NCBI GenBank assembly: GCA_905478325.1
Contig: CAJQIB010000037.1
Span: forward strand, 1-35,833
Origin: an uncultured Flavobacteriales bacterium
GTDB taxonomy: Bacteria; Bacteroidota; Bacteroidia; Flavobacteriales_D; Sanyastnellaceae
Direction: 5' to 3'
Length of the DNA stretch: 35,833 nucleotides
How positions within the stretch are numbered: position 1 is the stretch's first letter; every line of letters starts with the position of its first letter. Of this stretch, positions 10,962 through 14,663 are shown in pieces. The notes under the pieces are model-generated. The model was given only the letters and a program-made list of their open reading frames with translations. It ran no database searches and was not told where the DNA came from. The translations under genes and the position numbers were made by a program.

Positions 10962-11672
10962 CTATTTTGGTGTGTCAGAATCGCCCAGAGTCAACGGCTC
11001 GATCATCGGTCCGCAGCACATCCAAATCCGGGCATTGGTGATGGGTGAGACCCGGTTCCAGATTTCCCACGCGTATCGATGACCTCGGACGAGGCCTTCA
11101 ATAGTCCACGTTGTCTCGATATCTGGATTCCAATCAGGGGGTAAAATGACGCGGAGATCTCGTCGGAAATCCAGTTGAGGCCCCAGTGCTTTGAACATGG
11201 ATTCTTTCACCGTCCAAATGGCGCAAAGTTGGGCAAGAGAGGAATGTTCATCGCCTTCTTCCGTTGACATGACACGGTGAGCGATCTGCGGTAACGAAAT
11301 TCGCTCGCATTCGATGTCACATCCGATGGGAGAAGAGCCCAAAGCGACCAACGCATGGCACACATCGCCATCCGTTTGATGTGCTATGCTGATGGCTTGA
11401 TGGATGGCCGTTGAGTTAGGACGCTCAATGTGGGGTTTTAGATTGTCATCATGAACCACGTGAACGTCAGCGGCCTCGAGCCCCAAGCGTTGCAAAGCGT
11501 GATCCACGGAGAAATGCTCCAATTGGCGATGGGCGGGCATACAAACAACATCGCGCTTTGGGAACCGGATTTGATTTTTCGCCCAATGTTTCAAGTCAAC
11601 CGAGTTCGTCTGAACGGCTACGGCCACGGCGTTTGGGGCGGTTGATTCATAGAATGGGTGAATGACTGGCAT
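10962..11672 (-). CDS. 4'-phosphopantetheinyl transferase, Sfp-superfamily
   Basis: With the ATG at 11672 the product has 236 residues, the size of Sfp-type enzymes. These move phosphopantetheine from CoA to a serine of acyl- or peptidyl-carrier proteins. The magnesium site is visible as IGCDIE (D119, E121), and the second motif as WTVKESMFKALG (W153, K156, E157). In the cytoplasm it would activate the fatty acid synthase carrier protein and possibly others. A TTG at 11681 would add three residues, but the ATG fits better. The gene is divergent from ahcY; I recall this pairing from other flavobacteria. A TATACTTG box lies 6 nt before the ATG. Confidence 0.88.
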   Translation of the reverse strand: MPVIHPFYESTAPNAVAVAVQTNSVDLKHWAKNQIRFPKRDVVCMPAHRQLEHFSVDHALQRLGLEAADVHVVHDDNLKPHIERPNSTAIHQAISIAHQTDGDVCHALVALGSSPIGCDIECERISLPQIAHRVMSTEEGDEHSSLAQLCAIWTVKESMFKALGPQLDFRRDLRVILPPDWNPDIETTWTIEGLVRGHRYAWEIWNRVSPITNARIWMCCGPMIEPLTLGDSDTPK

Positions 11673-11678
11673 CGAGCG

Positions 11679-11686
11679 CAAGTATA
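11679..11686 (-). promoter_or_regulatory. Candidate -7 box of the phosphopantetheinyl transferase gene
   Basis: On the minus strand TATACTTG (11686 to 11679) differs from TAnnTTTG by one base and lies 6 nt before the ATG at 11672. It lies inside the 89-bp divergent region shared with ahcY. If used, the leader would be nearly absent. Confidence 0.35.
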
Positions 11687-11761: not shown

Positions 11762-13081
11762 ATGAGCACGAGTTTGACAACAGAGAAATTGCCTTACAAA
11801 GTAAAAGACATTGCACTCGCCGAGTGGGGTCGTAAGGAGATTCGACTGGCGGAAGCCGAGATGCCGGGATTGATGGCATTGCGGACGAAGTTCGAAGGTG
11901 AGAAACCACTGAAAGGTGCACGTATCGCGGGATGCTTGCACATGACCATTCAAACGGCTGTTTTGATTGAAACCCTTGTGGATTTGGGTGCAGATGTGAC
12001 CTGGTCTTCATGCAATATTTTCTCAACGCAAGACCATGCCGCCGCAGCAATCGCCGCAGCGGGCATCCCAGTCTATGCTTGGAAGGGTATGACGGAGGAA
12101 GAGTTTGAATGGTGCATCCGTCAAACGCTGTTTTTTGGCGACGATCGCAAGCAATTGAATATGATTTTGGACGATGGTGGCGATTTGACCAACATGGTTC
12201 TTGACGAATACCCTGAACTAGGAGCGGGCATCAACGGTCTTTCCGAGGAAACGACCACAGGTGTTTTGCGTCTGTACGATCGAATGAAGGCCGGCACATT
12301 GCCGATGCCAGCGATTAACGTCAATGATTCAGTGACGAAATCAAAATTCGACAACAAGTACGGTTGTAAGGAATCTGCGGTGGATGCGATTCGTCGCGCC
12401 ACGGACATCATGATGGCTGGAAAAGTTGCTGTTGTTGCAGGATACGGAGATGTTGGCAAGGGCACGGCAGATTCGCTTCGCAGTGCAGGTTGTCGTGTCA
12501 TGGTGACTGAAATTGACCCCATTTGCGCCTTGCAGGCAGCCATGGATGGATATGAAGTGAAACGCATGGTGGATGCCGTGAAGGAATGTGACATCATTGT
12601 TACAGCCACAGGCAACAAAGACATCATTCGTGGAGAGCACTTTGAGCAGATGAAGGACAAGGCCATCGTTTGCAACATCGGTCACTTCGACAATGAGATT
12701 GACGTAGCGTGGTTGAACAATCACCAAAGCGCAACCAAGGATACCATCAAGCCGCAAGTCGACTTGTACAACCTCAACGGAAAGGACATCATCTTATTGG
12801 CGGAAGGCCGCTTGGTGAATTTGGGATGTGCGACGGGCCACCCGAGTTTTGTCATGTCGAACTCATTTACAAACCAAACCCTAGCACAATTGGAGCTTTG
12901 GAACAACGCGGCAGCGTACAAAAATGAGGTCGTCACCTTGCCGAAGCATTTGGACGAGGAAGTGGCACGGCTGCACTTGGACAAAATCAATGTCGTATTG
13001 GAAACCTTGTCGCAGGAACAAGCCGATTACATTGGTGTTCCAGTGAATGGTCCGTTTAAGTCGGACTTGTATCGTTATTGA
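11762..13081 (+). CDS. ahcY: S-adenosyl-L-homocysteine hydrolase
   Basis: The 439-residue protein matches adenosylhomocysteinase along its whole length. It has the N-terminal [23 protein letters not shown] segment, substrate-site residues in [21 protein letters not shown], the NAD-binding loop GYGDVGKG at 227-234, and the conserved C terminus [10 protein letters not shown]. It reversibly cleaves S-adenosylhomocysteine to adenosine and homocysteine, using bound NAD, to keep methylation reactions running. The exosortase-family gene begins only 8 nt after its stop, so the two are probably co-transcribed. A TAACTTTC sequence at 11741-11748 is a possible but weak -7 box. Confidence 0.98.
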
Positions 13082-13089
13082 TCATTCGG

Positions 13090-13668
13090 ATGGGAGCCAT
13101 CCAACAGCTTAGAGAATTCGTCCGGTCACAGCCGGACGTTTTCCGTTTTCTAGTGTTGGGTTTTGGCGGATACATTGTGTGGCACCTGAGCTATGAGGAA
13201 TTTCTGAAGCCCGCGACCTTCATGGATGAGTATGTGACCGAGAGTCTCATCGTGATCACCGAGTGGGCTCTGGAATGGCTGGGATATGGATTGAATGCGC
13301 AATTCCAAATTATGGACGAGGCCTTCAGAACACGAGTTGGAATCAAAGGCGCAGCCGGAGTGTTCGTGGGGCCATCGTGCGATGGCGTGGTCTTATTTGC
13401 TCTGTTTGCCATCTTCATTGCGTCGTTTCCAGGGCGTTGGACGCGGAAGGTGTGGTTCATTCCTTTCGGGATTGCCATTTTACACGCGGCCAATGCATTT
13501 CGTATTATTTGCTTGCTGATGATTCAACTGTATTGGCCTTCAGCAATGGAATTCAATCATGACTACACGTTTACAGTCTTTGTTTATAGCATCATTTTTG
13601 CGTTGTGGTATGTCTATGCGACGCAACAAAACGGCATGAGCTGGAAGCGCTCTACGGCACGATCATGA
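13090..13668 (+). CDS. Exosortase/archaeosortase-family membrane transpeptidase (possibly XrtX type)
   Basis: The 192-residue protein has about five to six hydrophobic helices. It carries the exosortase catalytic set in order: C97 in VGPSCDGVVLF, R138 in HAANAFRIICL, and H157 in EFNHDYTFTVFVYS. Family members cleave a C-terminal sorting signal of exported proteins in the inner membrane and pass them on for surface attachment. The ATG at 13090 is preferred over a TTG at 13078 that overlaps the ahcY stop. The next gene overlaps by 4 bp and encodes a membrane protein of the kind that accompanies flavobacterial exosortases. No substrate with a matching sorting tail was seen in the window. The subtype is from memory. 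Confidence 0.82.
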   Translation: MGAIQQLREFVRSQPDVFRFLVLGFGGYIVWHLSYEEFLKPATFMDEYVTESLIVITEWALEWLGYGLNAQFQIMDEAFRTRVGIKGAAGVFVGPSCDGVVLFALFAIFIASFPGRWTRKVWFIPFGIAILHAANAFRIICLLMIQLYWPSAMEFNHDYTFTVFVYSIIFALWYVYATQQNGMSWKRSTARS

Positions 13669-14222
13669 GGGGAAATACGGCAGCGCCCATCTTGCCCTGG
13701 AAACGGCCAACGTGGATCGTTGTATTACTGGGAATGCTCGTTTTTGGTTTTTACCAAGAACTTGCGAAGGTGCATCTCAATCATTACATCGAGACTTTGG
13801 AACGGAACCCTGAAATCGTGGATTTGGAGCCGTCGAGTCGTGCCATGGCGTGGAAACAACTCAGTCAACCCAAGCGCTTGCATTATTATGTTATTCGCGG
13901 GACTTGGGACGGATTTCATGCGTTTTCTTTGAAGGAGTTGAACGCGCTGAAATGGGCCATGAGTCTATTGATCCTCCTGGTGTTTTTTGTTTTTGACGGT
14001 CTTTTCTTGAAGACAACGGGCCACTTCCATCGGTGGCCTTGGCTGGTCGTTATTTATGGGATGGCCGGACTGATCATGGGGGTGTTCATGATCGCAGTTC
14101 GAGGGAAAGCGGGATACAGTGTTTCGCATGAATTCCTGGCGTTTTTGCAATCGCCGTTGCCTTCCTTCCTCATTGTACTGGTGCCGTCCCTTCTTGAACG
14201 AATGCGCCAAAAAGAGGCGTGA
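13665..14222 (+). CDS. Membrane protein associated with the exosortase
   Basis: From the ATG at 13665, which overlaps the exosortase stop (ATGA), the product has 185 residues. One helix lies near residues 16-33. A periplasmic-looking segment of about 60 residues follows, containing VHLNHYIETLERNPE, then three more hydrophobic helices at about 97-115, 124-145 and 158-176. I recognise no catalytic motif. Translational coupling to a transpeptidase, and memory of small partner proteins beside flavobacterial exosortases, suggest a subunit or substrate-handling role; this is inference. An upstream in-frame ATG would add 20 residues inside the exosortase gene and is less likely. The gene converges on its neighbour with a 3-bp gap. 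Confidence 0.75.
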   Translation: MRGNTAAPILPWKRPTWIVVLLGMLVFGFYQELAKVHLNHYIETLERNPEIVDLEPSSRAMAWKQLSQPKRLHYYVIRGTWDGFHAFSLKELNALKWAMSLLILLVFFVFDGLFLKTTGHFHRWPWLVVIYGMAGLIMGVFMIAVRGKAGYSVSHEFLAFLQSPLPSFLIVLVPSLLERMRQKEA

Positions 14223-14225
14223 TGC

Positions 14226-14663
14226 TCAGGGGTTGTAGACCCGGAGGATGGGAGGAGTCCAAGACGTAGCGTAGCGGTGCAAGGGCACCGAGGCATCGCC
14301 ATCGACAACTGACCCGTCAATGATGAGCCATTGTGCATTGCTGCAAGGGTCGGTCAAAATCAGTCCGTCTTCTTCGACTTGAACTTGACAGCCTGCGGGA
14401 ATGTCAGCCGTTGCATGGCGATCCAATGCGACGAATTGGTCCAATGTGTAGCGATATAAAATGAGGCCTTGCGAGCCGCCACTCACGGCGATGTGGCCGC
14501 TTGGGACGGACAAGTCTATGTATGCGGGCAAATCGATGTTGATTTCGAAATCCACAGGGACATACGGGATAAACTGGTCGCTATCGTTGCACTTGGATTG
14601 ACACAGCAAAAGGGGCAAGAAGCCAACCCACAAAATTCGAGGATACCGACGGGATTTCTTCAT
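14226..14663 (-). CDS. Degenerate Rieske-fold exported protein (likely without an Fe-S cluster)
   Basis: The 145-residue protein has an N-terminal signal (residues 1-21) ending in LLLC, so C21 might be a lipidated cysteine, although the lipobox is not canonical. After an IPYVPVDFEINIDL segment, the arrangement GGSQGLILYRYTLDQFVALDR, a Cys near 92, DPC at 105-107 and IIDGSVVDG follows the layout of Bacteroidota Rieske-like lipoproteins. The CxH and CxxH cluster ligands are missing: DRHATAD stands where the first Cys would be, and DPCSNAQW has no His. It probably keeps the fold without binding 2Fe-2S. Its start overlaps the tsaB stop by 4 bp. The function is unknown. Confidence 0.75.
   Translation of the reverse strand: MKKSRRYPRILWVGFLPLLLCQSKCNDSDQFIPYVPVDFEINIDLPAYIDLSVPSGHIAVSGGSQGLILYRYTLDQFVALDRHATADIPAGCQVQVEEDGLILTDPCSNAQWLIIDGSVVDGDASVPLHRYATSWTPPILRVYNP

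Follow-up and report, generated by a model that had tools for sequence, protein, structure and literature searches.

The closest described counterpart of the locus reported here is the exosortase X system, whose components, namely the enzyme XrtX (NF046081), the XrtX-associated membrane protein (NF046082) and the PID-CTERM tail (NF046080), are already modelled in NCBIfam. A literature search confined to open-access papers found no discussion of XrtX/exosortase X or of PID-CTERM, nor of exosortase Y. In the same phylum, the XrtF system of Flavobacterium johnsoniae (Fjoh_1448/1449) likewise combines an exosortase with an adjacent partner gene, and mutants in xrtF and in the partner gene are reported to fail in biofilm formation and colonisation (PMC10936215). 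The targets of XrtF are stated to be unknown in PMC12188702, and PMC10936215 leaves them to future work. The PEP-CTERM/EpsH system belongs to the same superfamily and resembles the XrtX relatives in its tripartite tail and in the polysaccharide genes nearby (PMC1569441), but the PID motif replaces PEP in the XrtX system, which usually has one substrate in the order sample described below, and the window protein scores only 10.5 bits with TIGR02602 against a cut-off of 105.55. For GlyGly-CTERM/rhombosortase, genomes with a single target are described as tending to have adjacent enzyme and target genes (PMC3237569), and XrtX/PID in the order sample is a dedicated system in the sense of that paper, although rhombosortase, being a rhomboid serine protease, is not related to XrtX. 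Archaeosortase A, again of the same superfamily, shares the conserved Cys and Arg. ArtA of Haloferax volcanii is reported to need Cys173, Arg214 and Arg253 (PMC9263693), whereas XrtX, in a comparison by description and not by aligned columns, has His157 where ArtA is reported to need a second Arg.

The window, i.e., the whole stretch of 35,833 nucleotides that was analysed, is one of the 59 contigs (C37) of a genome of 2.375 Mb (G000). Its enzyme, partner and tail type match the models of the exosortase X system, and the two genes follow each other as they do there, but the enzyme lies 1.2 bits and the partner 51 bits under the respective cut-offs, the candidate substrate of the genus is Cys-rich and unlinked, and ahcY stands upstream in place of the substrate gene. 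We think that the pair supplies the enzymatic part of an exosortase X/PID-CTERM system, usually a one-substrate system, whose cassette has come apart in this genus, and we give this reading a probability of about 0.7. It draws on computed homology, catalytic columns, co-occurrence, gene order and purifying selection. The features of the window are as follows.

11762 to 13081, plus strand: ahcY, adenosylhomocysteinase (TIGR00936 632.5 bits, cut-off 497.6), not part of the sorting system as such.
13090 to 13668, plus strand: xrtX, exosortase X, 192 residues (NF046081 168.8 bits, cut-off 170; TIGR04178 and PF09721 above cut-off).
13378 to 13380, plus strand: codon of Cys97, the presumed nucleophile by its role in the superfamily, in an invariant column.
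13501 to 13503, plus strand: codon of Arg138, in an invariant column.
13558 to 13560, plus strand: codon of His157, in an invariant column.
13665 to 13668, plus strand: ATGA overlap of the xrtX stop and the partner start, read in the sequence.
13665 to 14222, plus strand: probable divergent XrtX-associated membrane protein, 185 residues (NF046082 24 bits, cut-off 75; assigned by profile comparison).

A first-pass annotation had described an exosortase-family enzyme with a co-encoded membrane partner lying 8 nt behind ahcY; the family matches and the ATGA overlap bear out the former, and the sequence confirms the gap, since the ahcY stop ends at 13081 and the xrtX ATG follows after 8 nt. An alternative TTG start at 13078 would give an XrtX of 196 residues, but the ATG at 13090 is the likelier start. 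The xrtX pair would be co-transcribed with ahcY. Convergent with the pair, an ORF of 145 residues on the minus strand (14226-14663) has a start resembling a signal peptide and matches nothing in Pfam or NCBIfam at E up to 1. On the other side, a gene resembling 4'-phosphopantetheinyl transferases (10962-11681, minus strand; PF01648 43.2 bits, cut-off 25) points away from ahcY and has a homologue at the same place in all of the 23 other genus loci examined.

As judged from family profiles, the product of 13090-13668 is a member of the already modelled exosortase X family. Its match to NF046081 has an E value of 9.1e-50, and the cut-off of that model is passed in two of the seven genomes of the genus (G143 with 173.9 bits and G122 with 171 bits). 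The superfamily models TIGR04178 (50.7 bits, cut-off 23) and PF09721 (27.7 bits, cut-off 25.7) are matched above threshold. When the exosortase subfamilies were compared by their HMMs, exosortase X came out best by a margin of about 98 bits, and membership in XrtF (TIGR04128, 70.8 bits against a cut-off of 90) and in exosortase Y (NF046083, 45.1 bits against 160) was rejected. Cys97, Arg138 and His157, which had been proposed as the catalytic set, are not displaced from the catalytic columns by alignment: they are invariant in 18 of 18 XrtX sequences of the genus, and after addition of 74 non-genus sequences with MAFFT, Cys is found in 73 of 73, Arg in 72 of 72 and His in 73 of 73 of the rows with a letter there. 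The three residues correspond to the conserved Cys, Arg and Arg/His of the superfamily, from which the name transpeptidase would be carried over to XrtX. In a quick tree of 71 of the 99 rows (28 were dropped as duplicates, fragments or sequences of <140 residues after automatic start trimming), the XrtX proteins of the genus form a single clade within the family (SH-aLRT 99), and its neighbours in the tree are genera in which a Cys-rich PID gene is linked. It is on this clade membership, and not on the NF046081 cut-off, that the protein is called XrtX. The named relatives of the window XrtX are marine Flavobacteriales assemblies. A structure prediction from 18 close sequences (pLDDT 48, pTM 0.37) was too poor for a fold search, and phmmer of XrtX against the sequences of the PDB found no convincing relative, the best matches being aminotransferases (E 0.043).

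The partner matches NF046082 weakly on its own, and profile comparison is more informative: partners from the genus against those from other genera of the family gave 100%, the latter against a set holding three members over the cut-off gave 99.8%, and the direct comparison of the genus partners with the set containing over-cut-off members gave 96.8%. The partner gene occupies position +1 of xrtX in 68 of 74 non-genus loci, the same position as in the window. By these profiles, the window partner would belong to the XrtX-associated family as a divergent member. It is predicted to be a helical membrane protein (pLDDT 81, pTM 0.73), and Foldseek of the model against the PDB returned nothing better than E = 3. 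For xrtX and for the partner gene, dN/dS was 0.036-0.107 in seven pairs each.

The relation of the enzyme to PID-CTERM proteins can be best appreciated in the relatives. Among the 150 genomes of an order sample, 64 carry both, 16 XrtX only, one PID-CTERM only and 69 neither (80 with XrtX at E up to 0.001, 36 of them over the cut-off, and 65 with PID-CTERM at E up to 0.01, 59 over the cut-off). A class sample of 295 genomes, some of them common to the order sample, was scored with stricter thresholds (XrtX E 1e-15, PID E 1e-3) and gave 126 with both, 43 with XrtX only, five with PID only and 121 with neither; the genome of the window counts there as XrtX only, its PID match having E 0.0026. PID-CTERM is present in 70 of the 78 class-sample genomes with XrtX over the cut-off and in 56 of the 91 with XrtX under it, which may hold other exosortases. 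The Fisher p values for co-occurrence, which ignore relatedness, are 8e-26 and 2e-38. In 14 named control genomes, the order-sample thresholds gave XrtX matches in three archaea and a PID match in one archaeon, all under the cut-offs, and the class-sample thresholds gave none of either. The PID match of the XrtX-negative genome G030 was rejected as a probable chance match, being partial and inside a frame of 1434 residues. In the class sample, G410 and four other genomes have PID matches without an XrtX match at E 1e-15.

Gene order adds to this pattern. The non-genus survey comprised 75 loci from 73 XrtX genomes of the order sample, and in 68 of these 73 genomes a PID-type ORF lies directly upstream of xrtX. 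One pattern recovered 65 same-strand ORFs ending close to the xrtX start, each from a different genome, and reading by eye added divergent tails upstream of xrtX in G006 and G016 and the end of a tail at a contig end in G128. The five exceptions are G113, where the contig ends; G028, with the PID gene about 7 kb off on the other strand; G100, with two PID genes elsewhere; and G049 and G134, two other members of the family in which NF046080 and three profiles (A1, A2, A5) found no PID-type protein beside their XrtX. In G028, two small ORFs that look by eye like an antitoxin-toxin pair separate xrtX from the partner gene (L124:5513-6087). Altogether, 74 of the 80 order-sample genomes with XrtX have a PID-type protein, in several cases recognised by its pattern or on visual inspection rather than with the curated model, and 63 of the 65 PID-positive genomes of this sample have a single match. 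The class sample is less uniform, and the system is not always dedicated: 32 of 131 PID-positive genomes have two or more matches, up to five. G206, G333, G383 and G410 have four or five each. XrtX-type systems can, then, also serve several targets.

Most of the PID-type proteins are small. Of the 71 extracted, 62 were classed by eye as Gly/Pro-rich, and a simple cleavage heuristic gives them a mature part up to PID of 16-48 residues (median 23.5); by the same heuristic, the nine Cys-rich ones, including four from the genus, have mature parts of 35-82 residues. The last Cys is placed 1 to 3 residues ahead of the P of PID in 68 of the 71. This near-constant residue recalls the invariant Cys of MYXO-CTERM, which is predicted to be lipidated (PMC11980579), but a disulphide with the preceding Cys would be just as likely.

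The first-pass annotation had stated that neither the substrate nor the role of the partner was visible. For the substrate this no longer holds, as a PID-CTERM-type candidate was found on another contig. It was the single match of NF046080 in the genome at E up to 10:

Contig C55, 7490 to 7834, minus strand: candidate substrate, 114 residues (NF046080 match).
Contig C55, 7858 to 10662 (locus L153; neighbours in L154 and L155): large secreted protein beside the PID gene.

The candidate has a start resembling a signal peptide, a Cys-rich middle, CTPIDSG, a hydrophobic stretch, RRR and a short end. It scores 19.9 bits with NF046080 in one search and 18.2 in another (cut-off 26), with its tail aligned to positions 1-19 of 25, and its orthologue in G143 reaches 26.3 bits, above the cut-off. 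Three orthologues from the genus align with it at 36-51% identity. Four of the seven genomes (G000, G122, G140 and G143) thus keep a PID protein whose tail has all three parts, and in each of them its gene and xrtX are on different contigs. That PID-CTERM proteins are the targets of XrtX is what co-occurrence and adjacency suggest.

Several observations concern the surroundings of this gene. In three of the four genomes (G000, G143 and G122, not G140), the gene immediately before it encodes a secreted protein of 917-943 residues, and the last 61 residues of this protein are similar to the Dockerin_1 end of an M43-type metalloprotease encoded nearby. The large secreted proteins that accompany the substrate genes in G000 and G006 show a weak likeness (E 5e-6, database of five proteins), which was set aside as too slight. 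In G122 (contig C68, L188), the N-terminal Cys-rich domain of a large secreted protein is similar to the ectodomain of the genus PID proteins (E 1.4e-19), but the protein continues into other repeats, with no PID tail at that place.

The other three genomes of the genus, G056, G065 and G146, have XrtX and no PID protein by NF046080, a genus profile and two tail profiles (A1, A2, A5). These profiles include the genus PID proteins, and A5 also the tails of G006 and G016, so that strong hits in the four PID-bearing genomes are given by construction. The site behind the metalloprotease gene, where relatives carry the PID gene, is without it in G065 and G146, and in G056 the contig ends there. Two of the profile searches gave weak tail hits (16 each); of these, six and four loci were inspected and all ten rejected, since they proved to be terminal or internal segments of other proteins (most of them polytopic) or frames opposite longer genes. 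In pairs with the G146 gene (L171) or the G065 gene (L173), xrtX and the partner gene have dN/dS of 0.045-0.086, so in these two testable PID-less genomes the pair is under purifying selection and not decaying. As the pair is kept without a recognisable PID protein, either an unseen substrate exists or XrtX does something more. It might be that XrtX of this genus has changed or broadened its substrates, the profiles missing the tail of its main targets and the PID protein of G000 being one of several or a remnant. The retention of a selected pair in PID-less genomes and the broken linkage of enzyme and substrate speak for such a change; nevertheless, a full-tailed PID protein is conserved in four of seven genomes and no other tail was recognised in G000, with searches that find PID-like tails only, and we consider it unlikely, if worth keeping in mind.

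Our preferred reading, a PID-CTERM system with a dispersed cassette, also accounts for the genomic setting. In 59 of the 74 non-genus loci, an upstream neighbour comes from one protein family, which we take for Wzc-like polysaccharide tyrosine kinases having a Tyr-rich end; of the 15 other loci, eight show no upstream ORF of at least 100 residues on the available piece. The sole member scanned against families, that of G000, has 166.5 bits with TIGR01007 (cut-off 108). G000 keeps one such kinase, on contig C36, with 46% identity, and the gene of 180 residues beside it has homologues in 24 non-genus loci, at position +2 of xrtX in 23 of them, for which reason C36 looks like the old locus minus pid, xrtX and the partner gene. 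The cassette of the genus is thus broken up, with xrtX and its partner behind ahcY, the Wzc gene on a second contig and the Cys-rich PID protein on a third. As a separate observation, G083, of the same family and with neither XrtX nor a PID match, has a best Wzc match of only 26% identity, the 11 other genomes searched reaching 39-55%. The difference hints at a joint loss of the system and the XrtX-type Wzc.

The Wzc-family neighbour in most loci, mature parts of down to 16 residues among the 62 Gly/Pro-class proteins and the report that F. johnsoniae needs XrtF and the XrtF partner to form biofilm and to colonise surfaces (PMC10936215) all speak for XrtX and its partner working mainly in polysaccharide assembly, e.g., by joining the peptide to a glycan or lipid carrier, with the PID peptide as linker or primer and not as a displayed product. 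The candidate substrate of the genus is, on the contrary, larger, Cys-rich and not near the Wzc gene, and we regard this as improbable.

As for ahcY, it is the gene immediately upstream of xrtX in all 19 distinct loci of the genus (24 loci with five duplicates), so that the suggested linkage is constant there, but it was not seen in relatives, where none of 74 non-genus loci gave an ahcY match (within flanks of at most about 5 kb, which contig ends sometimes shorten). The genus XrtX is one clade next to genera with linked Cys-rich PID genes, which makes relocation likelier than horizontal gain, and the linkage looks like a relocation out of the polysaccharide locus. A functional link, by which the pair would depend on the methyl cycle or its product be methylated, was rejected as very improbable in spite of the 19 loci, because the linkage exists in one clade only and can be one event; the coupling is probably incidental, a genus-level accident of gene order.

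The mechanism that we propose for the PID-CTERM system starts from the residues needed by ArtA, from which we infer that XrtX cuts near PID and may pass the substrate to a membrane acceptor. XrtX would sit in the inner membrane, where Cys97 with Arg138 and His157 would cut a secreted protein at or near the C-terminal P-I-D motif. The cut would remove the helix-plus-basic tail, and the cut end would probably be passed to a lipid or glycan acceptor with the assistance of the partner. In most relatives, the substrate would be a micro-protein with a mature part of some 16-48 residues, its gene lying just ahead of xrtX and close to that of a Wzc-type polysaccharide co-polymerase, a vicinity from which the product most likely belongs to the surface polysaccharide. 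In the genus, the Wzc gene would have stayed in place and xrtX and its partner moved behind ahcY, with the Cys-rich substrate of about 114 residues at a third locus. It is plausible that the pair is independent of type IX secretion.

A more speculative extension, which we hold for rather doubtful, is that XrtX systems display a Cys-bearing peptide of about 20 residues (e.g., C-W-P-P-P-C just before PID) that covalently links the cell surface to a Wzc-dependent polysaccharide. In the genus, this peptide might have been replaced by the Cys-rich protein beside a secreted protein with a dockerin-like end, so that the exosortase would now anchor a protein assembly in place of a polysaccharide.

Three points are new here: a candidate substrate can be named, the cassette of the genus is broken up, and some relatives retain the enzyme although no substrate is visible in them. 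Across most of the order sample, the XrtX pattern points to a single small candidate substrate whose gene adjoins that of the enzyme, and cleavage can therefore be tested with one tagged protein. The genus is a natural experiment in which the genes of enzyme, substrate and polysaccharide kinase now lie apart and in which the substrate is sometimes missing, with the enzyme still conserved.
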